This document shows positions 8,401 to 34,691 of a stretch of 64,000 nucleotides of DNA, piece after piece. The stretch's first letter is position 1; each line of letters opens with the position of its first letter. Under the pieces are notes generated by a model. The model saw only the letters and a program-made list of their open reading frames with translations. It was not told the DNA's origin and did not search any database. The position numbers were made by a program, and so were the translations under genes. The stretch comes from a virus: positions 1 to 64,000 of IMG/VR virus record IMGVR_UViG_3300034072_002211. One strand, given 5' to 3'.

Positions 8401-11400
8401 TCAGCAATGCTGTGACGCCAAACACCTATGGTATCATCGACGTGGTGGACCTCAATGTGGGTCAGGACAACCGCGCACTTGATGATCGTTGGCACTGGCG
8501 CCCAGACATGAAGGCAATTGAATGGCCACTCCGTGACTTCGGTCAGGGCGATGCTCCTCTGCCAACTGCTGGCTATGTGAACCTCGATGAAGTCCGCTTC
8601 ACAGTTGCCACCAAGGCTGAGTTTGAGGACTTCTTCGGTCAGCAAGAAGCTACCGATGAGCCCCTGGAAGCAGGCGACCGCGTTTGGGTTTACGGCATCG
8701 GTTCTGGCAAGCCAGAGGATTCGTGGATGACCTACAAGTTCCACGACACTGGTTACAACATCCTGAACACCTTTATGCCAACCTTTGAGGGTCAGGGCAC
8801 TGTGGTTCAGTTGGACCAGAACATCAAGGGTTATCAGAACGCTGACACAAACCCATGGAACACCACGTTCTATGTGGCTCAGCCTCTGCTGGCAGGTGAA
8901 AACGACGAGAATGGTAACGCAATCTCGGGCGAAATGCTGGTTCTCAAGAACCTCCAGGATGCTGACGTTAACCCACGCACTACCTACAAGCCAAGGGTGC
9001 TGGGCAAGGCAAAGCTGGCTCTCACTGGAACCAGTGGCACCACCGGCTTTGTGATGGGCTTCACTCCTGAGGCTCAGCAGATGATCCACAGGATCAAGGT
9101 TATTGTCGATGAACCATTCGCTGAGGGTTCCACGTTTGAGCTGGGATACCAGAACGACTTGGATGCTTTCGTGGCTATCCGTGAGGAAGATCAGAGGGAC
9201 ATTTATCCAACCAACTACGACAACGAAGCGGTGTTGGTTCAGACCCCTGCGACGTCCTACATGCCACCAAACGTCTCGACTGCTGACGTTGAATTGATCC
9301 GTGTGGGTCGAGTCTCGAACTTCTGTGCTCAGACGGTGGTTGAATGGTATTGGACCCGCAGCGACGGTTCTACGGCAAATGGCTCGGTGACGTTCCTGCG
9401 TCCTAGCGACGTTGTTGGTGACACTGACACGGATGATGCCTACCTGCAGACCATCCAGCTGCCAGTTACCCCTTCTGCTATGTCGGGCACATTGAGGGTT
9501 GTGACCAACGGTGTTCAGACTGACGTTCAGGTTCTGACTTTCCTCCGCACAAACCAGGCCGGCATCAACTCGGTTGATCTGACCCGTGCTGCTACCTATG
9601 AGTTCAGCCGCGCTGTCGGTATGTCCATGTATCCATGGAACACCAACACGGCTGGTGCTGATCGCGAGATGATCGCAACTCTGAACAGCCTTGGCACGCA
9701 GGGTTCTTTGCGCGTTGAGGTCGACTACTTCTACGTCAAGGGTTTTGAGCTTACCGAAGTGCTTAACGGCGCTGTGGTTCCAGCAACTTCCAACGTTGAT
9801 GGCGGCACCGCTGATGTGTTCACTTGGATTAAGACTCGCTACCCAAGCCTGAACGGCATCTCGGGTGCCCTACAGGACGGCGATCTTATTGAGGTTGACT
9901 CGGCACATGACACCCCAGGTCGTTGGGCTGTCTACAAGAAGGTCGTCAGTGAGTGGACCATCGTGCGTCGTCAGAATCGCAAGATCAACAGCGATCTCCT
10001 GACTAGCGCAGGTATCTTCAACAGCCAGGAGAACAAGCTCAAGCTGATTCTTCAGGTCTATGATCCCTACAAGGGCTTCATCCCAGGTGTCGCTGATCGC
10101 GAACTGGAATTCAAGACCTTTAACGATCCTGCGGTTTACAATGACGGTCGTATGATCTGGGGTAAGGAACAGGTTGGTAAGCTGTGGTGGGACCTCAGCG
10201 CTGTTCGCTATCTCGATTATGAAATCTATGACTCTTGGAAGTCGAATGACCACAGTGGTGTAAACTACCGCTGGAAGAACTGGGGCCGTGTTGCTCCAAA
10301 CTCCAGCGTGGATATCTACCAGTGGGTCAGGAGTCCAGTTGCTCCAAATGGCTGGTCTGACTACGTTGAGAGCAAGGCTGATCTGAAGATTGACAACAAG
10401 CCAACTGGCACTGTCGAGGAAGACGCCAAGTATGTCACCGCCACTGAGTGGAATGATGATATCCAAGCTGACGAGACAATCTATTACTTTTGGGTTAAGA
10501 ACCCAACGGTTGTTCCAACTCTGCCTTCGCGCAAGCTGTCGGCAAAGCAGGTCAGCAACATCCTCACGGATCCAGCAGCCAACGACATTCCGTTCTTTGC
10601 GGTCATTGACACCAACAAGGTGATCGTAGGTGGTATCAAGCAGTTCCTCAACGAAACTGATACGGTGCTCAAGATCAAGTGGCTCAAGGATGCTGAGATC
10701 ACCAACAACCACCACAAGCAGTGGATGATTCTGCGTGAGGAAGACGAGCGCAACACCATCAACGACACGCTATGGAACAAGATGCGTGACTCGCTGGTTG
10801 GTTGGGACTCGACTCAGAAGTATGTGCCTGATGAGAAGCTACCAGGGGCTCAGCAGATTGGTGCTATGGTTCGTCCTCGCCAGAGCTGGTTCCCAGCTGA
10901 TGCTTCGCCAAATGGCGGGCAGCGTCCAAGTCGTAGCGCCCGCGCGGCATTCGTGGATTGTCTGAATGACATCCTGAGTGAGCAGCCGTTCATCGACCAG
11001 TGGTATAACTGGAGCGAAGTGTTTGACAAGGGTGAGAACCTGCCAGCACCAGACCGCTACATCACCACTGCGCTGGATCTTGTTGATCTTCGCAACTTGC
11101 TGCCAGCGGCACGCAATATGGTTCAGCCCGGCGAATGCGTGCTCATTCAGAACACTGCAGAAGCTGCTGGTTTCTGGACCCTGTGGAAGCTGGTTGAAAT
11201 TGCTGGCCAGCGCCAGTTTATCCTCGAGGACTTCCAGAAGTGGAGGATGCAGGAGGGCGAACTGTGGAGTCTTGCTGATTGGTATGCTGATGGTTGGTCG
11301 GCTAAGAACTTCCCCAACTATCGTTTCCCAACCACTGCGGCACGCGATGCGGCAGGTAACTTGGACGTGACTCTGCTGAAGGGCACGTTGGTTCAGATTG

Positions 11401-22293: not shown

Positions 22294-23565
22294 TTAATGA
22301 TACTTAAAGTTTTGAACCACGAGTTCGTCGCCTTGGAAGAACACATCTGCGGAGGTTAGGCGACCACCCTTGCCGCTTCCTGTGTCCATGAAATATGCTA
22401 CACCTCCCTGGCTACCACGGACCAAAAGCGGCTTCACAGTGCTCCTAATGTCATGGCCGACCATGACCTGCTTGCCCTGTGGAATCCTATTCACCCACTC
22501 GTAAATGCGCGTGGGATAGCCGTCTGCCCTCTGGGGAGCCGTGTTGTCGACTTCACCAAAGAGCGCCATGGTCTCGAACTTGCCGGTCAAGCGAGCACTC
22601 GTGATGTCAAACATCTCAGGCTCAGCCGCGCCATGCGTGAAGAGAGTGTTGCCAATGATCCAATGGTGCCTAGAGAACCCTAGCAGGGCCCTGTAGCGCG
22701 TTTCGAACTTACGACGGGCGTCGGATGCTAGAGCTTCAATGGCCCTTGTAGTGACCTTGTTACCGTCACTGAGACGCACTCTTACGTCGTTGTGCTTGAC
22801 TTGTTCTAGCCAACGCTCAATCTTGCGCTCATGATTGCCAATGAGGCTGATGCCACGACCGCGCGTCACAATGCTGTAGACGTGATCCACACACTCAAGT
22901 GAATTGATACCATAATCCAGAATATCGCCCAGGAACACGCAGAAAAGCTTTCTCTGAGTTGCCCACTCGGTAGCATTCTTAAGCGGTTCAATCATACCAT
23001 GGACGTCGCCGACTACCATGATTCCGCGATAGCCACGGTTCTCAATGACCTTCTTGAGATCGATGTTGGTCAGTTTGCTGACAACCTCAAAATCCTCATT
23101 ACGAAAGTCAATGACGTTCGCAATACCATCACCCCTGAGAATATCACGCTCATTGGTGCGGAAAACATGCTCGTGCTTGGAGATTGTACCAGTAGCCGAA
23201 AGCCGCCAACTACGCTTGGCATCTGAGAGCTTGGTCTCCAGATTCCTATTACATACGATATAGAAAATGGGAACGCCAGTTCTCGAGCCAATATCGGCGA
23301 GACTCATACGATCCTTTTTGCGGAGATTGGTAGCATCGACGACCACGCGCTCGCCAAGCTCTAGCTTGAGCTGGGTGCGGCGATGAATCTCCTTGAACAC
23401 CACATCATTGATATCAAGACGCTGATAGTCTCCCGAGAGCTCATAGCGGATTTCTTCGCTGCTCATGATCTCATAGGGATCGAACTTCAAGCTAGTCAGG
23501 TGGGTCTTTCCGCCGCCCGCGGGGCCAACCATGATAACCAAACTATGGAGCGGAATTCTTTTCAT
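22294..23565 (-). CDS. Pnkp-like kinase-metallophosphatase (RNA end healing)
   Basis: A 423-residue two-domain enzyme. Residues 1-165 are a P-loop kinase with Walker A 'GPAGGGKT' (14-21) and 'VVVDATNLRKKDR', as in polynucleotide kinases. Residues 180-423 are a calcineurin-type phosphatase with GDVHG (186-190), GDILDYG (213-219), GNHE (243-246) and a later 'THG'. This order matches the kinase and phosphatase domains of bacterial Pnkp, which heals 5'-OH and 2',3'-phosphate RNA ends, but the ligase domain is absent. T4 Pnkp instead uses a HAD phosphatase. An Rnl1-type ligase is encoded at 33489. The start lies six bases after a -10-like box. Confidence 0.8.
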   Translation of the reverse strand: MKRIPLHSLVIMVGPAGGGKTHLTSLKFDPYEIMSSEEIRYELSGDYQRLDINDVVFKEIHRRTQLKLELGERVVVDATNLRKKDRMSLADIGSRTGVPIFYIVCNRNLETKLSDAKRSWRLSATGTISKHEHVFRTNERDILRGDGIANVIDFRNEDFEVVSKLTNIDLKKVIENRGYRGIMVVGDVHGMIEPLKNATEWATQRKLFCVFLGDILDYGINSLECVDHVYSIVTRGRGISLIGNHERKIERWLEQVKHNDVRVRLSDGNKVTTRAIEALASDARRKFETRYRALLGFSRHHWIIGNTLFTHGAAEPEMFDITSARLTGKFETMALFGEVDNTAPQRADGYPTRIYEWVNRIPQGKQVMVGHDIRSTVKPLLVRGSQGGVAYFMDTGSGKGGRLTSADVFFQGDELVVQNFKYH

Positions 23566-23571
23566 ATCACC

Positions 23572-23601
23572 AGCTTACTTGCTAATTGACTTTGGTGTCA
23601 A
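23572..23601 (-). promoter_or_regulatory. Promoter-like element of the Pnkp-like gene
   Basis: TTGACA, an 18-base spacer and TAAGCT, then exactly six bases (GGTGAT) to the ATG. The -10 match is weak, but the geometry repeats that of four other genes in the window. Confidence 0.4.
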
Positions 23602-23615
23602 TTTAACCTCATAAT
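23586..23615 (+). promoter_or_regulatory. Sigma-70-like promoter of the 23640 gene
   Basis: TTGACT, an 18-base spacer and CATAAT. It overlaps the divergent promoter on the other strand, so the two may compete. Confidence 0.5.
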
Positions 23616-23639
23616 AACACATACTGGTGAGGATACCAT

Positions 23640-24092
23640 ATGCGCCGTGCTTTTCTTCTTGCCGGCATTGCTGCTGGCGCTGTTGCTCTATTTACAACTG
23701 TCTCTGTGACCGTTTCTGCTCGTCAGGCTTCGCAGATCCAGACCTTCAAGACCAAACTCGCTGATCTGACGTTCTGCCGGACTGGCTACGACATTGCGAG
23801 TTCGCGTCCCCACTACATTGCGAGGTTCACAGAGGACGCCCAAGAAAAGGCTGACCTCATTGAACTCAGTGATGTCCTTCTCGAACGCAAAGAGCAGCTG
23901 GATCAGCTGATCTCTGACCATCTCAAGGAAGCTAAGGACCTTCCCTTGGATGCCTATGAGCGTTCGTTGCTGGTCGAAAAGACCACGTGGGAGGCAGAAC
24001 TTGATGCCGTTCATACGGCAGGATGGGTCCAGGAACCCGAAGCATTCCTGGACCACCTGTTGGAGCGTTGCGAGCCCTATATCAACGAATAA
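23640..24092 (+). CDS. Exported small protein, 150 aa
   Basis: The gene is isolated on the + strand among - strand genes. It starts with a signal peptide or N-terminal membrane anchor ('RRAFLLAGIAAGAVALFTTV', then 'SVTVSARQ'). The mature part is charged and helical, with two Cys (one in 'TFCRTGY', one near the end in 'ERCEPY') that could form a disulfide. AGGA precedes the ATG. A role in the periplasm or cell envelope, for example superinfection exclusion, is possible. The 3' end overlaps the convergent 24082 gene by 11 bases. Confidence 0.65.
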   Translation: MRRAFLLAGIAAGAVALFTTVSVTVSARQASQIQTFKTKLADLTFCRTGYDIASSRPHYIARFTEDAQEKADLIELSDVLLERKEQLDQLISDHLKEAKDLPLDAYERSLLVEKTTWEAELDAVHTAGWVQEPEAFLDHLLERCEPYINE

Positions 24093-24609
24093 CCGCATTG
24101 CCCTCGGCATCAATGCTGAGGGTGCCGCGCTTGACTCGAAGTGAGCCCTTAGTGCTGGGATGCTCCGGGGTCTCACGGGTCGTGAAGCCGGCCAGACAAT
24201 CCATGTGGTTGACGTAGAAGGTCTTGCCCCGGGCCTTCACAACCCACATGGGGATGAAGTCGAACTCGATGGACTTCTTGTTGAAGTGGAAGTCGATGTT
24301 CTTGCTTTCGACCTCCAGGGGAAACTCCTTCTTCTGCTCCTCGACACCCTTTTTCATGTCCTTGATCTGCTGCCAGCGGATCTTGGCCGTTTCGAGTGCG
24401 GTCATGAGCTTGCGAGCGATTGCGCGCTTGTGACCATGCTCCTTGATCAGGGCGCCGACCGGCTGACCTGCGCGCTGTCGAGCCTTGATCTCGAACTTGC
24501 TCGCCCGGACCTCCGAAGAGGCGTGAGCATAAAGCTCACGCCAATCGGAACGCCACTCGCTGTAGCCCTGGTAGTCGGTGAACTTGGGCTGCATACCGTG
24601 AACGCTCAT
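24082..24609 (-). CDS. DWR-motif protein, 175 aa
   Basis: The N-terminal 40 residues ('YSEWRSDWRELY' then 'EVRASK') share a motif with the neighbouring 24623 gene ('YLAYRTDWRAKY' then 'EIRANK'). The middle is a basic helix, and the C-terminal 90 residues contain 'ARGKTFYVNHMDCLAGFTTR', a beta-rich part. No enzyme motif recognised. It is the last gene of an operon that includes the PTH2 gene. Confidence 0.6.
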   Translation of the reverse strand: MSVHGMQPKFTDYQGYSEWRSDWRELYAHASSEVRASKFEIKARQRAGQPVGALIKEHGHKRAIARKLMTALETAKIRWQQIKDMKKGVEEQKKEFPLEVESKNIDFHFNKKSIEFDFIPMWVVKARGKTFYVNHMDCLAGFTTRETPEHPSTKGSLRVKRGTLSIDAEGNAVIR

Positions 24610-24622
24610 CAGTCCTACTCCC

Positions 24623-24880
24623 TTACGCTGCCTGAGCGACCGAAGCCGCCAGCTGGTTGTTCTTGAACTCCGTGGCTGCCGTGCGCTCCAACATCATCTT
24701 GTTGGCGCGAACGCGCAGGTAGTGGAGTGCGGACTGCAGGTCGGCGTTGTCGCCCTTGTTGGCACGCTGAGCGGCCTTGTTGGCGCGGATCTCGAGGGTG
24801 AGAGCCTTATACTTGGCACGCCAGTCGGTGCGGTAAGCCAGGTATTCGTCGCGGGTGGTGAAAGTGAAATTGTAAGTCAT
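24623..24880 (-). CDS. DWR-motif protein, 85 aa
   Basis: A short helical protein with the same 'Y-x-x-x-R-x-D-W-R-x-x-Y ... E-I-R-A-N-K' motif as the 24082 protein. The rest is rich in Ala, Asn and Arg. Its start overlaps the stop of the 24880 gene (TAATG). Patterns of this type occur in small proteins of other T4-like phages; function unknown. Confidence 0.6.
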   Translation of the reverse strand: MTYNFTFTTRDEYLAYRTDWRAKYKALTLEIRANKAAQRANKGDNADLQSALHYLRVRANKMMLERTAATEFKNNQLAASVAQAA

Positions 24881-25200
24881 TACTGTGCTCCTCCGAAAGT
24901 AAGTTTGAAAAGGACCGCCAGGTCCTGCTTCTCGAAATACCAGCGATTACCGCCGCTGGTGTGCCAGTAGCTACCGGCGCGTTCCTCGCACCACTGCTTC
25001 ATTTCGGCCATCAGGGTGCTGTTGGGCTCCCTCAGGTCGACAGTGGTCATCTCCGGCCAGGCTTCCCGAAGGTGCCGTGACCAGTGCTTGTCTCGAGTGT
25101 TTGCGCCAATGGGTGGACAGAACTTGAGGCCCTGTTCCCGCCAGACCTTAAGGTAGGCCTGGGTAGCGAGGCTTTGTGCGGTTTTGAAATCCGTCGCCAT
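24880..25200 (-). CDS. FKL-family small protein, 106 aa
   Basis: The protein ends 'RWYFEKQDLAVLFKLTFGG', one example of a C-terminal motif shared by many small genes in this window (F-x-[D/E/K]-x-x-x-A-x-x-F-K-L). A preceding 'MKQWCEERAGSYW' fits the 'W-L/C-x-E-N' element of the same family. It overlaps PTH2 by ATGA. Function unknown. Confidence 0.6.
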   Translation of the reverse strand: MATDFKTAQSLATQAYLKVWREQGLKFCPPIGANTRDKHWSRHLREAWPEMTTVDLREPNSTLMAEMKQWCEERAGSYWHTSGGNRWYFEKQDLAVLFKLTFGGAQ

Positions 25201-25658
25201 CAGTTGATCGCCGAGAATCGCTTGGTGATCGCATGGGCCTGCTCCTTGGTGCAGGGACCAATGCCGAGGGCGGTCACGATGGGGCTACCATCGAACGCGG
25301 TTCCTGGGATCACGTGGTTCTTGTCGATAATCAGCGAGGTGATCAGACCAGCAGCCTGGGCTTCTTCGTAAGCGCGCTGGAGAGCGGCTTCGTTCTTAGC
25401 CTTGAGGATGATCTGGGTGCCGATGAAGTCGGGGCCCTGATAGACCCGGAGCAACTCGGGATCGCGACGGCTCGCGAGGAGCACACAATTCTTGGCCGCG
25501 TGACAAGCCTGGCTTGCCATCTTACCCGGAGCCATGTCCAGGTCGCCGCGAATGATGCTGTAGATGCGAAGCTTTTCCGAGGCAGCTTCGAACGCCTCAT
25601 AGTCGTTGTCGTTGTCGTAACGAGCAGCGGCTTCCTACAGGAACGAATTGGTAAGCAT
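25200..25658 (-). CDS. Peptidyl-tRNA hydrolase (PTH2) with in-frame UAG at codon 8
   Basis: The frame codes for a PTH2 enzyme, which frees tRNA from peptidyl-tRNA. The N-terminal strand and helix read 'RIYSIIRGDLDMAPGK' then 'MASQACHAA', and the C-terminal part 'TALGIGPCTKEQAHAI' also fits the family. A strong site (AAGGAG, seven bases) precedes ATG 25656-25658. Codon 8 is TAG (25635-25637), then the same frame runs without a stop to the end, 152 codons in all. No ATG, GTG or TTG lies between the TAG and ATG 25535, and starting at 25535 would delete the first strand of the fold. A tRNA with anticodon CUA is encoded at 28717. Alternatives are a nonsense mutation or a sequence error. Confidence 0.75.
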
Positions 25659-25700
25659 TAAACTTCTCCTTCTCTTTTTGTCCAACATCGGACAACGCTC

Positions 25701-25728
25701 AACATAGGCACTCTTTTTCCTACGTCAA
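25701..25728 (-). promoter_or_regulatory. Sigma-70-like promoter of the PTH2 operon
   Basis: TTGACG, a 16-base spacer and TATGTT, 43-70 bases upstream of ATG 25658. A 6-bp stem (TTGTCC/GGACAA, about 25678-25695) lies in the leader. Confidence 0.5.
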
Positions 25729-25737
25729 CCGTTTTTC

Positions 25738-26106
25738 TTACCTCCAACGCAATTTGAACATCATTGCGTCTTTGCCATTCTCGAAAACCACACCCACGCT
25801 GGACGAGCAACCGCTGCTCCAGCCGACCTTTTTGAAGTCGCCGAACTTGACGTTCTCTTCCAACCAGGGAAGCATCTCAGAGAATGTTGAAGCAATAAAG
25901 CCTGTGATACGAACCAAATACCAACCGGGGTATTTGGCATTCACAGAATCAGCAAATTCGAGGTCAGGGAACTCATCCTCCTCGAACATACTGTTGAGCT
26001 TGGCCTCACCCAAGACACCATCGGTCTCAGGCTCTGCGAGGTCGTCGAACCACTCGTCGACATGCTCGTTATTGGGATTGTAATAGTAGGGGGTAAACGT
26101 CGTCAT
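25738..26106 (-). CDS. FKL-family small protein, 122 aa
   Basis: The N-terminal half is acidic. The C-terminal half has 'MLPWLEENVKFGDF' followed by 'VGVVFENGKDAMMFKLRW', the canonical form of the C-terminal FKL motif. GAGATGAG precedes the ATG. A short leader ORF with an amber codon ends three bases upstream (26110-26196). Function unknown. Confidence 0.65.
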   Translation of the reverse strand: MTTFTPYYYNPNNEHVDEWFDDLAEPETDGVLGEAKLNSMFEEDEFPDLEFADSVNAKYPGWYLVRITGFIASTFSEMLPWLEENVKFGDFKKVGWSSGCSSSVGVVFENGKDAMMFKLRWR

Positions 26107-26109
26107 CTC

Positions 26110-26196
26110 TCATCTCACTCTTAAACCAAAATCACAGGGGACCTTGGGAGTGAGTGGAGGGGCTCGAGGGGCCTAGACGTGGATGTTGGTCTTCAT
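26110..26196 (-). other. Possible leader ORF with amber codon at position 8
   Basis: ATG 26196 lies seven bases after a TATAAG -10 box. The frame reads M-K-T-N-I-H-V, then TAG, and continues 20 codons to a TGA at 26110-26112, three bases before the ATG of the 25738 gene. The first codons resemble the start of the PTH2 frame (M-L-T-N-S-F-L, then TAG). It has no clear ribosome site. If UAG is suppressed, ribosomes would end next to the start of the downstream gene. Speculative. Confidence 0.25.
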
Positions 26197-26203
26197 GCTT
26201 CTA

Positions 26204-26232
26204 CTTATACGCAGAAAGCGTGTGGAAGTCAA
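26204..26232 (-). promoter_or_regulatory. Sigma-70-like promoter of the 25738 gene
   Basis: TTGACT, a 17-base spacer and TATAAG. The leader to the 25738 start is about 95 bases and contains the short ORF with an amber codon. Confidence 0.55.
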
Positions 26233-26234
26233 AA

Positions 26235-26675
26235 TTAGATCAATCCACGCTCATGGCACTCTTCGAGCACGCCACGATAGACGCGCATGTTGGGCTGATA
26301 CGGACCCCGGCCAAAATACTTGGCATCGTCCCCGTTGAGGGCCTTGTCGAGGGCCGCGCCAATGGCTGCGCTGCGGCACCGCCCCATGAGGCAGTGGATG
26401 TAGATGACGCTCACATCCTTGCTTTTCATGTCCTCCACGAAGTCGAGGACAGCTTCAGCATGGGTGGGATTGAACAGAATGCGAGCTTCCTCTTCGGGCT
26501 CACCATTCTTGTATTCGTCAATGTCATGGAACTTGAGGTTGAGCCTTCCAGTCAGGTGCTCGTTCTCATAGACCTCCGGAAAGTCACCTTTCTCGCAGAT
26601 GCTGATGAGCGCCCAAGGCTTGTCGGGCGGAGTTGCGGTCATCATGACCGCACGGCTGTAGACTACGAACTTCAT
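26235..26675 (-). CDS. Dual-specificity/tyrosine phosphatase-like protein
   Basis: A 146-residue protein with the Cys-based phosphatase loop H-C-x5-R-S ('HCLMGRCRS', C95 and R101) at the end of a beta strand ('VSVIYI'). An upstream Asp-containing loop (about D51-D53) could supply the general acid. Such enzymes act on phosphoproteins, RNA 5' ends or phosphoinositides; the substrate here is unknown. The ATG lies six bases after the -10 box of a good promoter. Confidence 0.8.
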   Translation of the reverse strand: MKFVVYSRAVMMTATPPDKPWALISICEKGDFPEVYENEHLTGRLNLKFHDIDEYKNGEPEEEARILFNPTHAEAVLDFVEDMKSKDVSVIYIHCLMGRCRSAAIGAALDKALNGDDAKYFGRGPYQPNMRVYRGVLEECHERGLI

Positions 26676-26681
26676 GTCACC

Positions 26682-26709
26682 AGTCTACAGCCTAGCACCA
26701 GTTTGTCAA
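26682..26709 (-). promoter_or_regulatory. Sigma-70-like promoter of the phosphatase gene
   Basis: TTGACA, a 16-base spacer and TAGACT, followed by GGTGAC and the ATG. It overlaps the stop codon of the 26706 gene. CTGGTG occurs twice, before and after the -10 box. Confidence 0.6.
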
Positions 26710-26981
26710 CCCTCGATGCTGGAGATCTCGATCTCCAGATAATAGTCTTCAGCCATCATCTGGAGAACTCCGCCTTCGATCCATGCTTCTTGGCGAGGAT
26801 CGAACTCAGCCCAATCCAGAGAAGCCGGCGACACTGTGACGGCCTTTCCTTTGTGGTGTTGGACGAAGAGATCCATGGGAGCGAAAGCCGGTGGATTCTC
26901 GGCATCACGAGCTCGATACTTGCGGGCGCTGTAGGTCTGGCCATTGACCAGCTTGTCAGCTAGATCTGAACCCTTGCTCAT
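26706..26981 (-). CDS. Hypothetical protein, 91 aa
   Basis: A 91-residue protein with a basic N-terminal third and an acidic, beta-rich C-terminus ('MMAEDYYLEIEISSIEG'). It overlaps the GlyRS-like gene by four bases (ATGA) and is co-translated with it. No family recognised. Confidence 0.55.
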   Translation of the reverse strand: MSKGSDLADKLVNGQTYSARKYRARDAENPPAFAPMDLFVQHHKGKAVTVSPASLDWAEFDPRQEAWIEGGVLQMMAEDYYLEIEISSIEG

Positions 26982-27796
26982 TCACTCGGCTCCCTGTTGA
27001 TGTCGTCACGCTGGGCCTGTTGCCAGTTGTAGACGCAACGGTCGAGGCCGATGGCAATCTCGAGCACGAGCGCATCCTTTTCGACCAGACCTTTCTTGCT
27101 CTGGAAAGCCAGCTTCTGAGGGAAATCAGTCCGCTTGCTGATGCTGCAGACTTCCATCCACTTGTCGCCGTTCCAGACCTCGACGTCCATGGTGCGGAGC
27201 GAATAAGCGGGCAGACGATCACTCTCCACAAGCCGCGTCGGCAAGTGAATCTGAGAAGCGATCATCTTGCGGACCTTCTCCAGCATCTCTTCCTGATAGT
27301 CGAGAGCTGTGTCGGCGCTGTAGACGCACTGAAACTCCTGCTGGTAGAATTCCTTGAGCCGCATGTGCTTGGTTGGCTGGACGATCTCGCGCCGGAAACT
27401 CTTACCGGCCTGCCAGACGCAGAAGGGCGGGAAGATGCTCAGTTGATTGTTGAGCAGGTATTGCGCGTAGGCGTAGCTGCCGGGCGTCGTTTCGGGCCGC
27501 AGAGCCAGTTCACGGTAGCCTTGCCGCGCCTGCGTCAGAGCCTCGAACTCTTCTTCAGTTTTGGCAGGAGCATCCACGTCTTCCTGAACCCAGATATCCT
27601 GTTCGGTATAGTTGACGTTGAGGAGGTCGCGCGGAGTCAGCAGCGGTGCTTCCACGAAGAAGAACTTCCACTGTGGGTTGAGGGCAACAAGGTCCCGCTG
27701 AACTGTCTGGGCGAAGAAGTCCCGGAAGTGTTCGCGGAGCCGGATCTCTTCCTCACTCCAGAAGATCAGGCCGTTGATGTCAAAGGTATTCTGCAT
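26978..27796 (-). CDS. Minimal glycyl-tRNA synthetase-like class II enzyme
   Basis: The 272 residues cover a class II synthetase catalytic core. 'LRPETTPGSY' (99-108) matches GlyRS 'LRPETAQG', and motif 2 'GKSFRREI' (131-138, R135) is followed by 'MRLKEFYQQEF'. 'WMEVCSISKRTDF' (213-225) fits the GlyRS glycine-site region, and motif 3 is 'IAIGLDR' (247-253). The C-terminus ends about 20 residues later, so the anticodon-binding domain is missing. It may charge a minihelix, modify something other than tRNA, or use a partner. It follows the 27798 gene at one-base spacing. Confidence 0.75.
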   Translation of the reverse strand: MQNTFDINGLIFWSEEEIRLREHFRDFFAQTVQRDLVALNPQWKFFFVEAPLLTPRDLLNVNYTEQDIWVQEDVDAPAKTEEEFEALTQARQGYRELALRPETTPGSYAYAQYLLNNQLSIFPPFCVWQAGKSFRREIVQPTKHMRLKEFYQQEFQCVYSADTALDYQEEMLEKVRKMIASQIHLPTRLVESDRLPAYSLRTMDVEVWNGDKWMEVCSISKRTDFPQKLAFQSKKGLVEKDALVLEIAIGLDRCVYNWQQAQRDDINREPSE

Positions 27797-27797
27797 G

Positions 27798-28178
27798 TCA
27801 GACCAACTTCATTGGCGTGGGCAGGGCAACGTAGGCGCCTGTCTTGGGATAACGGATGTGGGTTGCGGTGGTCGTCCCGTCCTCTTGGATCTCCACGCGG
27901 AAGTAGATCTCCAGCCCCGAATAGCGGAAGTTGTCGCTACAGCTTTCCGGGAGGTTGAGCTGGATGGCGTCATGATCCCGCGAGTCCTTGGTGGACCCTA
28001 CCTGATAGTCGTCCCAGATGATGGGAAACTTGGGCTTCTTGGCCTCTTCCTCACGGCGAGCCAGCTCAGCCTGCATCCGCTGGATCTGCCCCTGTAGGTC
28101 CTCGTCGCTCTTCCCGGCGAAAGGATCGCGCTTGGGCGCGGTATCGTCAATACCACCGGGAAGAGGAGAAATGCTCAT
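27798..28178 (-). CDS. Hypothetical protein, 126 aa
   Basis: ATG 28178 is chosen because it overlaps the stop of the 28175 gene (ATGA) and longer versions would run into that gene. The N-terminus has a charged helix ('DEDLQGQIQRMQAELARREE'). The C-terminal 70 residues are beta-rich ('YSGLEIYFRVEIQEDG'). No family recognised. Confidence 0.55.
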   Translation of the reverse strand: MSISPLPGGIDDTAPKRDPFAGKSDEDLQGQIQRMQAELARREEEAKKPKFPIIWDDYQVGSTKDSRDHDAIQLNLPESCSDNFRYSGLEIYFRVEIQEDGTTTATHIRYPKTGAYVALPTPMKLV

Positions 28179-28696
28179 TTGAATGCTCCAAGGGCAACGA
28201 GAATCAGACCTAGGATCACAGCCATAGTGCCAATAATCAGCGTGGGAAAGCTGATTCCTTTCTTCACGACCTGTGGTGCAGGTGGAGTTGGCTTGACCGG
28301 CTCGGGCTTGGGAACGCGAATGCCCAACGAACCACCCCAATCGAGATTGTCCCAGGGGATGCCACCCCGATTGTTGTTGCCCATACTGTGGCCGGTGCGG
28401 ATAAACAGGTTCTCCGAAGCGGCCCAAGCATCCAACTCACGCCACACCGCATTGTAGGGGCTCTGAGGGTTGCTATGGGAGTTCTTGTAGCCAGCATCCA
28501 GAGGAGCGGCAAAGAGATGCCGGATCTCTTTGGGAGCCAGGACGGGAGCATAGTCATTCCCGCCCTTGTCGATTTGTGTTGTCAGCGCGTTGAGGAGGTC
28601 CTCTTTGACAAACTTACGGAGCATGTCCGACCTGCGCGTCACTCGTTCCTGGCGGCGCAGTTCTTCAGTTTGCTTCAGTTGTTCACCAATCGACAC
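28175..28696 (-). CDS. C-terminally membrane-anchored protein, 173 aa
   Basis: The start is set at GTG 28696, eight bases after GAGG, because the earlier in-frame ATG lies inside the tRNA gene. The N-terminus is a charged helix and the middle a polar globular part. A Pro-rich linker ('PKPEPVKPTPPAPQ') leads to one membrane segment at the very C-terminus ('FPTLIIGTMAVILGLILVAL'). A tail-anchored topology with the bulk in the cytoplasm is expected. Unknown function. Confidence 0.55.
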   Translation of the reverse strand: MSIGEQLKQTEELRRQERVTRRSDMLRKFVKEDLLNALTTQIDKGGNDYAPVLAPKEIRHLFAAPLDAGYKNSHSNPQSPYNAVWRELDAWAASENLFIRTGHSMGNNNRGGIPWDNLDWGGSLGIRVPKPEPVKPTPPAPQVVKKGISFPTLIIGTMAVILGLILVALGAFK

Positions 28697-28716
28697 TACA
28701 CTGACCTCACAAGTTT

Positions 28717-28792
28717 TGGCGCTCCCGGTGGGGCTCGAACCCACGACCCGCAGATTTAGAGTCCGCTGCTCTGCCAGCTGAGCTACGGGAGC
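28717..28792 (-). tRNA. Suppressor tRNA, anticodon CUA (reads UAG)
   Basis: A complete 76-base cloverleaf on the - strand. The 7-bp acceptor (GCTCCCG/CGGGAGC) is perfect, the D-arm is GCTC/GAGC, and the anticodon stem is GCGGA/TCTGC with one G-T pair. The anticodon loop is CTCTAAA, the variable loop has five bases, and the T-arm is GTGGG/CCCAC with loop TTCGAGC. The discriminator is G73 and CCA is encoded (28717-28719). Anticodon bases 28759-28757 read CUA, so it decodes the amber codon. G73 and U35 fit charging by a glutaminyl-type enzyme, but the amino acid cannot be settled by eye. Confidence 0.93.
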
Positions 28793-28803
28793 ATGTAACC
28801 TGT

Positions 28804-29262
28804 TTAGGACTTTTTCTCCAAAGCGTCAAGCCGTGCGGCAATTTCCTGGACCAGTCGCAGCGTCTCCTCAGAGTTCTGCTTGATCTGCTCCTGCTCATCA
28901 TGAGTCCAGGCGTTGCTGTCTACGATCATGTGGGCGGCCAGCTTGGCCGTGATGATCGGTGCCACGAGGAAGGAGCAGATGTGCATGAAGATTGCGCCGA
29001 AGAATCGGCTGCTCGTGTGGGTTGGCGAATAGTCGCCATAGCCGACGGTGGTCGCCGTGACGCTGGCCCACCAGTAGCCCTCTGCGAGCTTCTTGCCCTC
29101 GATGAAGCTGAACATGACCGCTGCGAGGGTCATGATCAGTAGGTATGCGATCAACAGGCTGAATAACCGGTTGAACATCTTTTGCATCAGCGTGAGCTCT
29201 TGTCCCGCATGGACTGCGGTGCTCAGGATGTCGCTACCGGCTTGTTCGATCTGTCTACGCAT
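28804..29262 (-). CDS. Potassium channel, two membrane segments
   Basis: A 152-residue protein with the canonical K+ selectivity filter 'TVGYGD' (72-77) after a pore helix ('YWWASVTAT'). It lies between two membrane segments, about residues 33-54 and 86-112. The C-terminal 35 residues form a coiled coil ('EETLRLVQEIAARLDALEKK') that could tetramerise it. The layout is that of KcsA/Kcv-type channels. It has its own promoter and a strong GGAGG site, and lies 11 bases upstream of the suppressor tRNA. It would act in the host inner membrane, perhaps to change membrane potential. Confidence 0.92.
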   Translation of the reverse strand: MRRQIEQAGSDILSTAVHAGQELTLMQKMFNRLFSLLIAYLLIMTLAAVMFSFIEGKKLAEGYWWASVTATTVGYGDYSPTHTSSRFFGAIFMHICSFLVAPIITAKLAAHMIVDSNAWTHDEQEQIKQNSEETLRLVQEIAARLDALEKKS

Positions 29263-29280
29263 TTGTGCCTCCTTTCCTGA

Positions 29281-29308
29281 ACCGTAACACAGGAGAGCAG
29301 CCTGTCAA
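29281..29308 (-). promoter_or_regulatory. Sigma-70-like promoter of the K+ channel and tRNA
   Basis: TTGACA, a 16-base spacer and TACGGT, 19 bases upstream of the channel ATG. The tRNA is probably cut from the same transcript. Confidence 0.5.
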
Positions 29309-29311
29309 CAG

Positions 29312-29339
29312 AAAAGGGCGCCAGTTTCCTGACGCCCTT
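29312..29339 (-). terminator. Terminator after the 29361 gene
   Basis: A 7-bp stem (AAGGGCG/CGCCCTT, 29314-29320 with 29333-29339) whose right arm runs into TTTT on the - strand. It lies directly before the channel promoter. Confidence 0.6.
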
Positions 29340-29360
29340 ATAACCGTAGTGAGCTGTCGG

Positions 29361-29951
29361 TTAATTCAGCTCGCTATACTTGCTCGCCATGCCGTCCGAC
29401 ATGCGCTGGAGCATTCCAGCCAGCGTCTTGTAGATCGTGTTGAACACACGGACCAGGAAGTCGCCGAGGAAAGTCTCGAGCAGCGAGAAAGGCCAGAACA
29501 CCATCCAGGTCGTGATACGACCCTTGTTGTGACGAACCATGCGGTTGTAGTTGACGTCCAGACGTGCCACGTCGTGCTGGTCGTTGAACTCCTTGCGGAC
29601 TGCCGGATCAGCAGGCATCTCGTCGAGACCCTTGCGCTTCAGGAAGTTGTAGCGAAGCTCTTCATACTTCTCGAACAGTGCCGGAAGGAAGAACGCGCGC
29701 CACTTGATGGTCGCCCAGAGAGCTGCCACGCCCAGATAGCCCAGGAAACCATAGAGATAGTAGATCGGCGGAATGCCAGCGAGCAGCTTGACCGTGTTGG
29801 TCAGTGCGACGACCGCCGCAACTGCGGCGAGGAGGGTAAAGGCGGCCCAGCCGACCTTCTCCTCATGAACCTGGGTCGTGATGACCAGGGCAACAATGCC
29901 GACGATGCTCCAGAACAGGAGACCGCCGAACGTAACGATATCCCAAAGCAT
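29361..29951 (-). CDS. Membrane protein, 196 aa
   Basis: The N-terminal half has three hydrophobic segments (about residues 5-25, 33-55 and 62-85), with short loops. The C-terminal half is charged and helical, ending in an amphipathic segment ('FLGDFLVRVFNTIYKTLAGM'). It directly follows cysS (stop and start adjacent), so it shares its promoter. No family recognised; a role at the host inner membrane is likely. Confidence 0.65.
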   Translation of the reverse strand: MLWDIVTFGGLLFWSIVGIVALVITTQVHEEKVGWAAFTLLAAVAAVVALTNTVKLLAGIPPIYYLYGFLGYLGVAALWATIKWRAFFLPALFEKYEELRYNFLKRKGLDEMPADPAVRKEFNDQHDVARLDVNYNRMVRHNKGRITTWMVFWPFSLLETFLGDFLVRVFNTIYKTLAGMLQRMSDGMASKYSELN

Positions 29952-31304
29952 TTAGGACTTCCTCCATTCGGTGCCGTGAACGCCATCGGCCAGCGTGATC
30001 CCCATATCAGTGAGCTGCTGACGGATCCTATCAGCCTCCCCGTAGTTTTTGGCCCTACGTGCCTCTTGACGAGCCGCAATTAGAGCCTCGACAGCCTCCT
30101 TGTCAACACCAAGTGTCCGCCATTGGTGCGGAGTATGGTTAAAGAGACCGAGAAACTGACCAGCCTTGATCAGTCGAGCCTTTGCGGGCGCCTTGTCCTT
30201 GGCATGGTCGAGGTCATCTGCGAGTCTATGGAGGACAGACAGAGCTGTGGTGGTATTGAGGTCCTGCGATAGCGCAGAGATGATCTCTGCTGGCACATCA
30301 ACGTCCTCGGCGTAGTTGAGCTCGTCGTGCCGATAGAGGACCTCATAGAGCCCGTCGAGGGCACGATGCGCCATGTCCAGCTTGTCCATAGTAAAGTCCA
30401 TGGGCGAGCGGTAATGTGACTGCATGAAGAGGTAACGAACGCTCTCCGCGGGATACTGATCGAAAAGCTCGTTCAAGAGGATCACGTTGCCGCGGCTCTT
30501 GCTCATCTTTTCGCCATTCACTGTCAGGAGACCGTTGTGTATCCAGTAGTTGGCAAGCGGAGCACCGTTGTGGTGGCACTGGCTCTGAGCGCACTCGGCT
30601 TCATGATGCGGAAAGCGCAGATCCTGACCACCACCGTGAATGTCGATTGTTGGACGTGCGAACGTGTGGTTGATCATGGCCGAGCATTCAATATGCCAAC
30701 CCGGCCGCCCCTGGCCCCAAGGCGAGAACCAGCTTGGCTCGCCCAGCTTTGCGGGTTTCCAGAGCACGAAATCTCTGGGGTCCTTTTTCTTGGGATCGAC
30801 CTCAACCCGTGAACCCGCTTCCGTGTGGGTGTGATTTGCGAGACCGGGATGGGGATTGCTGGGAACGTGGAAGAAAACCTCCCCGTCCACCGCATAGGCA
30901 TAGCCGTGATCGATCAGTGCGATGATCATGGCAATCATACCAGGAATGTGCTGGGTGGCCCTTGGTTCCACAGTGGGCGGCAAGCAAGCCAGAGCCTCGA
31001 GATCCATATGGTAGGCCGCGAGTGCCGTGTCAGTGATCTGGCTGATCGGAACACCGCGCTCGATTGATGCTGCGATGATCTTGTCATCCACGTCCGTGAT
31101 GTTGCGGACATAGCGGACTTCGCGCTCTCCGTAGACGTGGCGCAGAAGCCGGAAGACCTGGTCGAACACGATGGCTGGGCGCGCGTTACCGATATGCGCT
31201 GGCCCATAGACCGTTGGACCACAGACATACATAGCCACCTGCTGCGAAAACGCAGGCTTGAACTCTTCCACTTGGCGGCTCTGACTGTTGTAGAATGTGA
31301 TCAT
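29952..31304 (-). CDS. cysS: Cysteinyl-tRNA synthetase
   Basis: A full-length 450-residue class I synthetase that charges tRNA-Cys. It has the HIGH-type motif 'HIGN' (37-40), KMSKS (266-270) and the zinc ligands C28, C207 ('GWHIEC') and 'HHEAEC' (233-238). 'DIHGGGQDLRFPHHE' is diagnostic for CysRS. The C-terminal helical domain ('YGEADRIRQQLTDMGI') is also present. All expected motifs are intact, so it is probably active. The ATG lies six bases after the -10 box of a TTGACA promoter. Confidence 0.96.
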   Translation of the reverse strand: MITFYNSQSRQVEEFKPAFSQQVAMYVCGPTVYGPAHIGNARPAIVFDQVFRLLRHVYGEREVRYVRNITDVDDKIIAASIERGVPISQITDTALAAYHMDLEALACLPPTVEPRATQHIPGMIAMIIALIDHGYAYAVDGEVFFHVPSNPHPGLANHTHTEAGSRVEVDPKKKDPRDFVLWKPAKLGEPSWFSPWGQGRPGWHIECSAMINHTFARPTIDIHGGGQDLRFPHHEAECAQSQCHHNGAPLANYWIHNGLLTVNGEKMSKSRGNVILLNELFDQYPAESVRYLFMQSHYRSPMDFTMDKLDMAHRALDGLYEVLYRHDELNYAEDVDVPAEIISALSQDLNTTTALSVLHRLADDLDHAKDKAPAKARLIKAGQFLGLFNHTPHQWRTLGVDKEAVEALIAARQEARRAKNYGEADRIRQQLTDMGITLADGVHGTEWRKS

Positions 31305-31310
31305 CTGTCC

Positions 31311-31338
31311 TATCTACGACAGATAGGCTTGATGTCAA
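31311..31338 (-). promoter_or_regulatory. Sigma-70-like promoter of cysS
   Basis: TTGACA, a 16-base spacer and TAGATA, then GGACAG and the ATG. The block TAGATAGGACAGATG is identical to that before coaE (40553-40567). A 7-bp inverted repeat (CCTATCT/AGATAGG) spans the -10 box. Confidence 0.65.
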
Positions 31339-31342
31339 CCAA

Positions 31343-31666
31343 TCATCGACCGCCCAATGTGAGCTTACACATCAAGGCGGTATTGAGATCCGTGAAGCCA
31401 ATCTCGACCAAGGGCGCTTGGTAGTTCAAGAGACTTCTATAGCCTCCTACACCACCTGGATATTCCTTTCCATGGGCGGTATATCGCATCAGGCCCTTGC
31501 CATGTGCTTTGAACCACTTCTGGAGATCAACTCCATTGTTGCTCACAACGGTCCAGTCCTGACCCTTGATGCGAGGACAAAGCCAGGTCTTGAGTTCAGC
31601 ATCATGGAGGACCACCCGGTAGCTGTAAAGGGTTGTCCAGTGCCACCAGCGGCGCCACCGTCCCAT
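31343..31666 (-). CDS. FKL-family small protein, 107 aa
   Basis: The C-terminus 'VEIGFTDLNTALMCKLTLGG' is a divergent FKL motif. ATG 31666 is chosen because it lies just after the stop of the upstream ATP-grasp gene; the frame continues upstream with ATGs that would overlap that gene by about 115 bases. The ribosome site is weak (AAGGG too close), so the start is uncertain. The protein is rich in Trp and Tyr. Unknown function. Confidence 0.5.
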   Translation of the reverse strand: MGRWRRWWHWTTLYSYRVVLHDAELKTWLCPRIKGQDWTVVSNNGVDLQKWFKAHGKGLMRYTAHGKEYPGGVGGYRSLLNYQAPLVEIGFTDLNTALMCKLTLGGR

Positions 31667-31694
31667 GACCCTTACGAAATCACTGGATAGTGGC

Positions 31695-32534
31695 TTATTC
31701 CAGATCCAGACCGGACCACTCTCTAAGAGCCGCTCGGCTAACGCCTTCAACGACTTTTGCCAAGTCGCAAGCATAGAGTCCCGCGCAGCTGAATCCGTTG
31801 AGTTCGACAATGCGAGGTCCTTCCGCAGTTAGCGCAACGTCACAGGTATAGGCAATGTCAACTTGCCACTCATGATCAGCTACCATTTGCGCCAAGTCCC
31901 AGCATTCCTGGGGCCAATCACGCCTGATGTCAAGCTTGCCATCCCAGCGATATTCGGATGCTGCGATAACTTGCTTGTCGGCAATCACAAAACGGAATTC
32001 ACCCTGGATATCAATACCAGGATTCACAAAGCACATGGTTTCATCCATGACACCAGAGAGCTTGTCTAGCGTCTCGATATCATGGTCGATTGTGCCATAC
32101 ATCATGCGCTGACCCGCAAAGGTCTTGAACCCACTATCGGGGCGCAGAAACAGCATGTTGGTATCGTGCTGATAGAATAGATCCCGGCGACGTTGCTTGA
32201 ACATCGCCCAGGTCATGAACACGCCGTCACGGTTGAGAAACCAGTAGATCGGCAAATTGCTCATGTAGGCGGAGGCACGAGTCCGCTCGTTTACACCCAG
32301 ATGCCCTGGCTGAAATCTTCCGTCGGGATTGACGGCTTTGACGAAGCTGTGTGATCCAAAAAGAATCGTGCATTCATCAGGTCGAGGAGCCACACTGGCG
32401 TAGGACCCGTCAGCGTTGCGTTCAACTCCGACAACTTCATAGCCTGCGGCTCGAATGGTATCGGGGAGGCCTCGCCTATCATGCGTGAGCCTTTCTAGGA
32501 TCTGATTGTCAAGAATCCAGGTAATGGGTGCCAT
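31695..32534 (-). CDS. ATP-grasp domain protein
   Basis: A 279-residue protein. The C-terminal half has ATP-grasp features: 'GIDIQGEFRFVIADKQVIAA', then 'VDIAYTCDVALT' and the metal-binding 'PRIVELNGFSCAGLY'. These enzymes join a carboxylate to an amine or thiol at the cost of ATP. The substrate is unknown; related phage proteins are known mainly by sequence. The ATG lies six bases after a -10 box. Confidence 0.75.
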   Translation of the reverse strand: MAPITWILDNQILERLTHDRRGLPDTIRAAGYEVVGVERNADGSYASVAPRPDECTILFGSHSFVKAVNPDGRFQPGHLGVNERTRASAYMSNLPIYWFLNRDGVFMTWAMFKQRRRDLFYQHDTNMLFLRPDSGFKTFAGQRMMYGTIDHDIETLDKLSGVMDETMCFVNPGIDIQGEFRFVIADKQVIAASEYRWDGKLDIRRDWPQECWDLAQMVADHEWQVDIAYTCDVALTAEGPRIVELNGFSCAGLYACDLAKVVEGVSRAALREWSGLDLE

Positions 32535-32540
32535 CCAATC

Positions 32541-32569
32541 ATATTAAGACTGGATAGCACCCAAGTCAA
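32541..32569 (-). promoter_or_regulatory. Sigma-70-like promoter of the ATP-grasp gene
   Basis: TTGACT, a 17-base spacer and TAATAT, then GATTGG and the ATG of the ATP-grasp gene. This is the same spacing as at cysS and coaE. Confidence 0.55.
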
Positions 32570-32574
32570 CCTGT

Positions 32575-32922
32575 TTAGGCTGCGCGACGAACGTCCTCGT
32601 CGTAAGCCTTCTCGAACGGCAATTCTGTCGAGATCTCAACATCGTCGCCGATCGCCTCCACGCTCATATTGGCCTGAGCCATAAGCGTGATCATCATTTT
32701 GCGGATCTGCTCCGACATCTTGATGACTTTGACGTCTGCGTCCATGGCCTGATCGCGTCGGATGCGATGTAGTTCATCCTTGGCGGCCCTGCGAGCCTCA
32801 TTGATGAACATACGAGTCACGACGTCCTCAACCACGTCTGTTCCGACGGGGGTTGGACCCATGAGCATTTCCGGCGCAATCTGGGTGAGATCCAGATTGA
32901 ACGAAACCTTGAACTTAGACAC
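32575..32922 (-). CDS. Hypothetical protein, 115 aa
   Basis: The start is set at GTG 32922, seven bases after GGGAG, which gives a natural N-terminus 'SKFKVSFNLDLTQIAPEM'. Residues 30-90 are helical and charged, with many Met. No family recognised. The bases from 32923 to 33094 hold no gene that I can support. Confidence 0.5.
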   Translation of the reverse strand: MSKFKVSFNLDLTQIAPEMLMGPTPVGTDVVEDVVTRMFINEARRAAKDELHRIRRDQAMDADVKVIKMSEQIRKMMITLMAQANMSVEAIGDDVEISTELPFEKAYDEDVRRAA

Positions 32923-33094
32923 TATCGATCTCCCTACTGGGACCTCCAATACGGAAAAGGGAGGTTGTTTAGGCATTTGGAGCGAACTCCATTAGGCCCT
33001 AGAGCCCTTTTCCGATCTGCGCCTAAGCAACGCAAATCGTTTAGCAGAATTGCGCCTACGCGCCAAGCGAAAATTGTCAAGAAATAACACACCC

Positions 33095-33439
33095 TTAAAT
33101 AAGGGCTGGACCACTTAGGGAAACGGTGTTGCTATGAAAGCACACAAAGAGTGGCATCTCGGGTTTGCTGTAGAGAGAATGTGGGCCCATTTTGAAATAC
33201 AGGGCCTCACGCACGTCTTTGAAAACAATGCGAATATAAGTGTGAACCTTGTGGTCGGCTGTTTGGGCTACCTCTTCCAACTGTGTTAGGTCCCAAGGGC
33301 TTTTACAGTTCTTGAAAAGCCATGCTTCGATGAAGCTGTAGAGGAGATCAACAGTCATTTTCTTGAGATGCGAAACCTCAAGGGTGACCGTAAACCCATC
33401 GGCCAGAGTCTTTTCGTGCGACTCTCTTAGCAAGTTCAT
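33095..33439 (-). CDS. FKL-related small protein, 114 aa
   Basis: The motif is internal here: 'TYIRIVFKDVREALYFKMG' at residues about 68-86, followed by 28 further residues. An earlier 'SFIEAWLFKNC' fits the 'W-L' element of the family. The ATG lies directly after a late-promoter-like ATAAATAA, so the mRNA may be leaderless. Unknown function. Confidence 0.55.
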   Translation of the reverse strand: MNLLRESHEKTLADGFTVTLEVSHLKKMTVDLLYSFIEAWLFKNCKSPWDLTQLEEVAQTADHKVHTYIRIVFKDVREALYFKMGPHSLYSKPEMPLFVCFHSNTVSLSGPALI

Positions 33440-33442
33440 CCC

Positions 33443-33450
33443 TTATTTAT
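33443..33450 (-). promoter_or_regulatory. Late-promoter-like box at the 33439 start
   Basis: ATAAATAA on the - strand ends three bases before the ATG. With the usual start 6-8 bases downstream, transcription would begin at or near the A of the start codon. Confidence 0.45.
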
Positions 33451-33488
33451 GAGCCGTGCTAGGGGTATAGCACGGCTCACAGGGTGGA

Positions 33489-34691
33489 TCACTCGCTTAG
33501 ACTGTTGTCCCGGTAATCAGACCAGCTCGCCCCTCCCCAGAGGTGCCGCATGGCATTGACCTTGCTCTGACTACCAAGCTGCGAGCCCACAAACTTGATG
33601 ATGTTGGCGTAAACGCCTTCTTCGCCCTCGTCCAAACGATCCCAGGCAGTGAACTTGAAGCCCTGGAGACCATCATTGACCTTGGTCACCTTCTCCGCGA
33701 ACTTCTTCTTGCTGCCGTTGAGGTTGTCGAACTCAGCCTGGACTTCCCAGAAGATGTCACTGGCCAGCTTCTTCAACCCGGTGAAGATGGTCTTGGCGAA
33801 GTCGTCGCTAGCCTTGACTAGATCCTCGGGCAGGAAGGGCTTTGCATCATCCAGCTTCTCGTCCACAATGAGACGGATCACATCCTTCTCATGGGTCAAG
33901 TGCTCAAGCGTCTTGTGGAGTAGCGAATACCACTCGCCCTTCAACTTGAGCATGGTGCCATCGGGCCAACGCAGAACGTCGCCTTCTTCACCCTCGATTG
34001 CTCGGATCTCTTCAATCATCTCCTCGTCCAGGCCATCCTGGAGAGAAGAGAACGAGCAGCAAGGAATGCCATAAGCGGCTGCTTCTTCCTTGAGCTCAGG
34101 TGCATCCATGTATTCACCGGTGGTGTTGTCACGGATTGCGGTGAGAACCAGCTGAGTCACAGGATAGTCGATGACGATCCGCTGAATACGAGAGCACCAC
34201 TCAAAGATTGGAGTCTTGCCTTGGCTCATCCAATACTTGCAGAACTCGTGATACTCAACACGGTCCTTGGCCCACTCGTCAACGGGCGCAGCCACGCCAG
34301 TGAGGCCCATCTTAGTGCAGAAGCGCACCTGACCCTTGATCAACAGAGGCGTGATCATAGATCCGTCTAGCTTCTTGAAGCGACGGTAGGGCTTGGACCA
34401 GTCCACATTCTCAGGAAGCGTTTCGTTGCGCTCACCGAGGTTGAAGAACTTGTGATACTTGCGAGCAAGGACCTTGCCAGTGGCCGTGTCAAACGTGATG
34501 CCGCGGCATTCACGCAGGAGCGCCGTCCGGCGATCGGTCACAGGTGGGAAGGTGTCCTCGAAGTTGACCAGATAGTTGACGACCGTGTAGCCGTGCTCTT
34601 CGTCAACCTTGACCACGAACTCTTCACGGCCCTCAATGGCCTCAAGGATTTCACTCAAGTGAGTGATCGTGGGAAACTGATAGTGAGTCAT
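33489..34691 (-). CDS. RNA ligase, T4 Rnl1 type
   Basis: A 400-residue ligase. Motif I is 'KLDGS' with lysine K107 as the expected AMP-accepting residue; the T4 enzyme uses K99. 'ARKYHKFFNLGE' just before it is typical of Rnl1, and 'TPIFEWCSRIQRIVIDY' and 'LKLKGEWYSLLH' fit the later nucleotidyl-transferase motifs. Rnl1 seals broken anticodon loops made by host tRNA-cutting defence enzymes. With the Pnkp-like gene (22294) it would complete an RNA-repair pathway. Confidence 0.93.
   Translation of the reverse strand: MTHYQFPTITHLSEILEAIEGREEFVVKVDEEHGYTVVNYLVNFEDTFPPVTDRRTALLRECRGITFDTATGKVLARKYHKFFNLGERNETLPENVDWSKPYRRFKKLDGSMITPLLIKGQVRFCTKMGLTGVAAPVDEWAKDRVEYHEFCKYWMSQGKTPIFEWCSRIQRIVIDYPVTQLVLTAIRDNTTGEYMDAPELKEEAAAYGIPCCSFSSLQDGLDEEMIEEIRAIEGEEGDVLRWPDGTMLKLKGEWYSLLHKTLEHLTHEKDVIRLIVDEKLDDAKPFLPEDLVKASDDFAKTIFTGLKKLASDIFWEVQAEFDNLNGSKKKFAEKVTKVNDGLQGFKFTAWDRLDEGEEGVYANIIKFVGSQLGSQSKVNAMRHLWGGASWSDYRDNSLSE

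Follow-up and report, generated by a model that had tools for sequence, protein, structure and literature searches.

An early in-frame stop codon conserved in a giant-phage peptidyl-tRNA hydrolase gene, and its proposed reading by phage suppressor tRNAs

Known stop-codon systems and the interrupted PTH2 gene

In bacteria, prfB, the gene for RF2, is autoregulated through an early in-frame UGA that serves as a sensor and is passed by a +1 frameshift. The phage PTH2 gene described here resembles prfB in that a gene for a translation factor has a stop among its first codons, where expression would be set by competition at the stop, but its frame is unchanged, the stop needs to be read by a tRNA, and the enzyme is a peptidyl-tRNA hydrolase rather than a release factor. 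Stop recoding with phage tRNAs has also been described (PMC13037316). As in code 15 and TGA-recoding phages, a phage-encoded CUA or UCA tRNA would read a stop as sense; unlike in those phages, where many genes carry the codon, a single conserved gene is concerned here, and UAG and UGA still act as terminators. Pyrrolysine and selenocysteine decoding likewise confine a stop codon to few genes and rely on a special tRNA, and the phage locus also has a small class II synthetase close by. However, this synthetase is GlyRS-like and not PylRS, it is missing from Agrobacterium phage Atu_ph07, no covarying element was seen downstream of the stop, and the UCA tRNA of Atu_ph07 (75 nt) is too short for SelC. 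Orphan suppressor tRNAs are known from the jumbo phages Atu_ph07, XacN1 and AP-J-162, that of Atu_ph07 being the one treated here. It was described as an opal suppressor, and neither that paper (PMC6102473) nor the one on XacN1 (PMC5852040) assigned a suppressor tRNA a target. Our text searches of the literature returned no paper in which a suppressor tRNA is connected with a peptidyl-tRNA hydrolase of a phage.

We analysed a stretch of 64,000 nucleotides (the window), which is part of a 277,444-bp phage record. On its minus strand, a frame starts at ATG 25658-25656, meets an in-frame TAG at codon 8 (25637-25635) and then stays open until TGA 25202-25200. The leader codons (MLTNSFL, 25638..25658) are preceded, 7 nt upstream of the ATG, by the Shine-Dalgarno sequence AGGAG (25666..25670). 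The 144 residues encoded after the UAG, comprising a linker and the domain (25200..25634), matched Pfam PTH2 (PF01981, E=8e-21) as well as the PDB profiles 2zv3, 1q7s and 1rlk, so that the gene product is a predicted PTH2 peptidyl-tRNA hydrolase; its AlphaFold model was of poor quality (pLDDT 48). An earlier note on this DNA had described a PTH2 frame with a good ribosome site, a UAG at codon 8 and an in-frame continuation, all of which we found again. It had also claimed that no start lies between the UAG and the fold. The window bears this out: the 22 codons separating the UAG and the PTH2 domain contain no ATG, GTG or TTG and likewise none of the near-cognate starts CTG, ATT, ATC and ATA, and KLRIYSIIRGDL, which forms the fold's first strand, follows the TAG.

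Upstream of the gene we found a sigma70-like promoter on the minus strand (25701..25728), with TTGACG at 25728-25723, 16 nt, and TATGTT at 25706-25701; the same promoter type stands 5' of PTH2 in the other close relatives. Directly after the promoter, the 5'-UTR contains the hairpin TTGTCCGATGTTGGACAA (25678..25695, minus strand), whose outer pairs showed compensatory changes in RNAalifold. Among the promoters of sigma70-like type found in seven genomes, this hairpin occurred at PTH2 only. The search for an RNA stimulator 3' of the UAG gave no covarying structure, the RNAalifold pairs being almost only invariant; both folding results come from alignments without the Phosso row.

Conservation of the stop and ordinary use of stop codons

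We collected orthologues of this PTH2 gene from viral contigs and phage records, obtaining 13 including the window, from independent assemblies and two sequenced isolates. Repeat scans added no more, and a bacterial and archaeal genome collection yielded no relative. In 13/13 orthologues an SD-led ATG opens a run of three to seven sense codons, the ATG included, that is closed by a stop in frame with PTH2. The stop is UAG in 12 and UGA in one, and in the Sinorhizobium phage Phosso the UAG is codon 4; the homologue search for UAG or a sense codon at this place, which the earlier note had suggested, thus returned a stop throughout. SD energies ahead of the leaders ranged from -5.9 to -10.4 kcal/mol. 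In all 13 the zero frame continues past the stop, which differs from a +1 frameshift of the RF2 type. The leaders vary by branch (MLTNSFL, MTAFT, MSY, MTM, MKY and MIGEHF), as does linker length; the stop has thus been kept while its surroundings drifted. Among the eight closest sequences, pN/pS was 0.15 for leader codons 2-7, 0.27 for linker codons 9-28, 0.12 for codons 29-41, which hold the first strand, and 0.12 for the remainder. These low values before and after the stop indicate that both sides are selected as protein in one frame. A conserved stop with coding selection on either side in a single frame is the pattern of programmed readthrough, and the stop-interrupted PTH2 is, as judged by sequence comparison, a trait of a giant-phage family of soil bacteria.

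To define early-stop genes, we scanned seven large genomes for an SD and start, a stop within 2-20 codons and then at least 60 open codons with no early start. The scan returned 825 candidates, among which PTH2 was the sole cluster present in at least three of the seven genomes. Other early TAGs of the window (21558, 57899 and 19956) were not conserved and were dropped. The same phages carry one or two further PTH2 genes per genome, and all those checked start normally, at or before the domain; one of them is a second PTH2 gene at G000:220738-221034, outside the window. Five more distant phage PTH2 genes, that of XacN1 among them, also have normal starts.

Stop codons are used in the ordinary way in these genomes. 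TAG terminates 7-13% of genes of at least 150 aa in the UAG phages, TGA terminates 34% of such genes in Atu_ph07, and backup stops were not enriched after TAG-ended genes. Genome-wide stop reassignment was rejected, since TAG is still an ordinary terminator and only one conserved gene has the early stop. Because UAG ends other genes and backup stops are not in excess, a strong suppressor would be costly; suppression would therefore have to be weak, limited in time or dependent on context, unless other genes terminate efficiently. Searches for a phage release factor (PF00472) and for a bacterial-type PTH (PF01195) found none.

Suppressor tRNAs and a proposed stop gate

ARAGORN identified a tRNA(CUA) gene at 28717..28792 on the minus strand (loop CTCTAAA, G73), a candidate reader of the UAG. 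A tRNA(CUA) was present in every UAG-type phage with adequate sequence, in two or three copies in each large UAG genome examined; the two shortest records (G009 and G010, 25 and 38 kb) have no tRNA of any kind and were left out of the comparison of tRNAs with stops. A second tRNA(CUA) of another type (A73) lies at G000:253634-253712, outside the window. The discriminator and the anticodon loop and arm of the G73 tRNA resemble tRNA-Trp and the A73 tRNA is more Lys-like, both terms describing resemblance, as similarity does not settle the isotype.

The phage Atu_ph07, which has UGA in its PTH2, carries one tRNA(UCA) and no tRNA(CUA). In the tree it groups with two UAG phages (support 95/90), nested inside the clade, and its stop and anticodon are therefore most simply taken to have switched together. 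No tRNA(UCA) was found in the UAG clade genomes or, in a partial check, in the control loci examined. Among 16 jumbo or large phages outside the clade, at least 5 had a tRNA(CUA), XacN1 being one such jumbo phage (PMC5852040). Since tRNA(CUA) is this common elsewhere, the UAG/CUA pairing alone is weak evidence, and the joint switch of stop and anticodon is the sole strongly informative part of the pairing, and it is a single evolutionary event. The earlier note had proposed a circuit with the phage tRNA(CUA). Its decoding step is well supported by the comparison of UAG with CUA and UGA with UCA, but the presence of the tRNA(CUA), taken by itself, adds little.

We infer that the stop is a programmed, suppressor-tRNA-dependent gate on a single gene, at which RF1 would compete with the phage tRNA(CUA) at codon 8 and PTH2 would be made in proportion to readthrough; we regard this as the probable explanation. 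Ribosomes would begin at ATG 25658, make a leader of seven residues and arrive at the UAG, where either host RF1 would terminate or the phage tRNA(CUA) would decode the codon, elongation then continuing in frame to full PTH2 peptidyl-tRNA hydrolase. PTH2 output would report how much charged suppressor tRNA there is relative to RF1, and the enzyme would appear only after the phage's own tRNAs had been expressed and charged. One possible logic would be that suppressor activity, with the readthrough and the stalled or dropped peptidyl-tRNA that it may cause, also turns on the enzyme that clears them. When the stop is not read, the leader could act as a minigene, since peptidyl-tRNA drop-off early in elongation covers lengths of 3-7 codons.

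We propose PTH2 as the target of the Atu_ph07 suppressor tRNA, which would give one of the jumbo-phage suppressor tRNAs of unnamed target a concrete and conserved candidate. The gate suggests that a phage stop codon and the phage's own tRNA can form a one-gene switch and not a changed code, and it is open to direct test, as both Phosso and Atu_ph07 are in culture.

The stop could instead be read leakily by near-cognate tRNAs of the host, keeping PTH2 low while the phage suppressor tRNA is a coincidence. The frequency of tRNA(CUA) in unrelated jumbo phages and the otherwise ordinary use of UAG as a stop are consistent with such leakiness, to which we allow a small chance. However, it leaves unaccounted for that the UGA in PTH2 of Atu_ph07 coincides with a UCA tRNA and the absence of CUA, and that the UAG clade genomes and the control loci examined yielded no UCA tRNA.

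The neighbouring synthetase and the internal start

A small class II synthetase sits between tRNA(CUA) and PTH2 (26978..27796, minus strand). Pfam (PF00587), NCBIfam and PDB profiles together with a fold match identified it as a GlyRS-like core lacking the anticodon-binding domain; its AlphaFold model (pLDDT 86) and the profiles placed it nearest to GlyRS, ProRS and SerRS cores. The synthetase near tRNA(CUA) is therefore GlyRS-like by profile and fold, not a PylRS. We consider it a possible partner of tRNA(CUA), as it lies near the G73 tRNA(CUA) in Phosso as well as in the eight close relatives. One special case of the stop gate, compatible with it, would be an extension of the code for a single gene: the GlyRS-like mini-synthetase would charge the adjacent G73 tRNA(CUA), the residue entering at codon 8 being perhaps an unusual one, and this tRNA would serve mainly to turn PTH2 on, so that tRNA recycling would be tied to suppressor activity. 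This orthogonal pair is unlikely. Atu_ph07 lacks the synthetase, and the partial record G008 yielded no copy of it, so that the proposed gate would not depend on it there and it is not needed everywhere. In addition, most of its homologues in other phages do not adjoin a tRNA(CUA), and the G73 base and anticodon arm of the tRNA are Trp-like.

Free-standing GlyRS-like cores of this kind occur in 25 viral contigs (L043-L067), the Caulobacter phage copies being annotated as hypothetical. The window also holds an island of translation and tRNA-repair genes on the minus strand (22294-34691), with a Pnkp-like kinase-phosphatase (22294-23565), CysRS (29952-31304) and a T4 RnlA-type RNA ligase (33489-34691).

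An internal ATG (25533..25535, minus strand) offers an alternative start. It encodes the family Met of the motif DL-x-M-x-x-GK, and the SD before it in the window is weak (-3.5 kcal/mol). Alignment to solved PTH2 structures placed the first strand (RIYSIIRGDL) upstream of ATG 25535, so a protein begun there would be made without that strand, and we judge a start at this ATG unlikely. For both Phosso and Atu_ph07, the PTH2 gene as annotated publicly (L011 8070; L012 10064) starts at the internal ATG and is missing the first strand, which indicates that these gene calls begin too late.

Those annotations would agree with a leader that is a separate regulatory mini-ORF prone to drop-off, PTH2 being reinitiated downstream at ATG 25535 or at a non-AUG codon. 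Every leader has 3-7 codons, a length at which early-elongation peptidyl-tRNA drop-off is known (PMC10192219), and SD-like pairing precedes the internal ATG in a few relatives. Reinitiation is nevertheless very unlikely: an internal start would remove the conserved first strand, the low pN/pS of codons 29-41 (0.12) and of the linker (0.27) speaks for their translation, the window linker has no usable start, and the internal Met is explained as a family residue.

A sequencing error, mutation or pseudogene, a concern raised by the earlier note, is practically excluded, since the stop recurs in 13/13 orthologues, which come from independent assemblies and two sequenced isolates, and since the gene is under purifying selection.

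On the plus strand of the window, we also observed an open frame of 3,699 codons (2475-13574), which probably encodes a very large structural protein.
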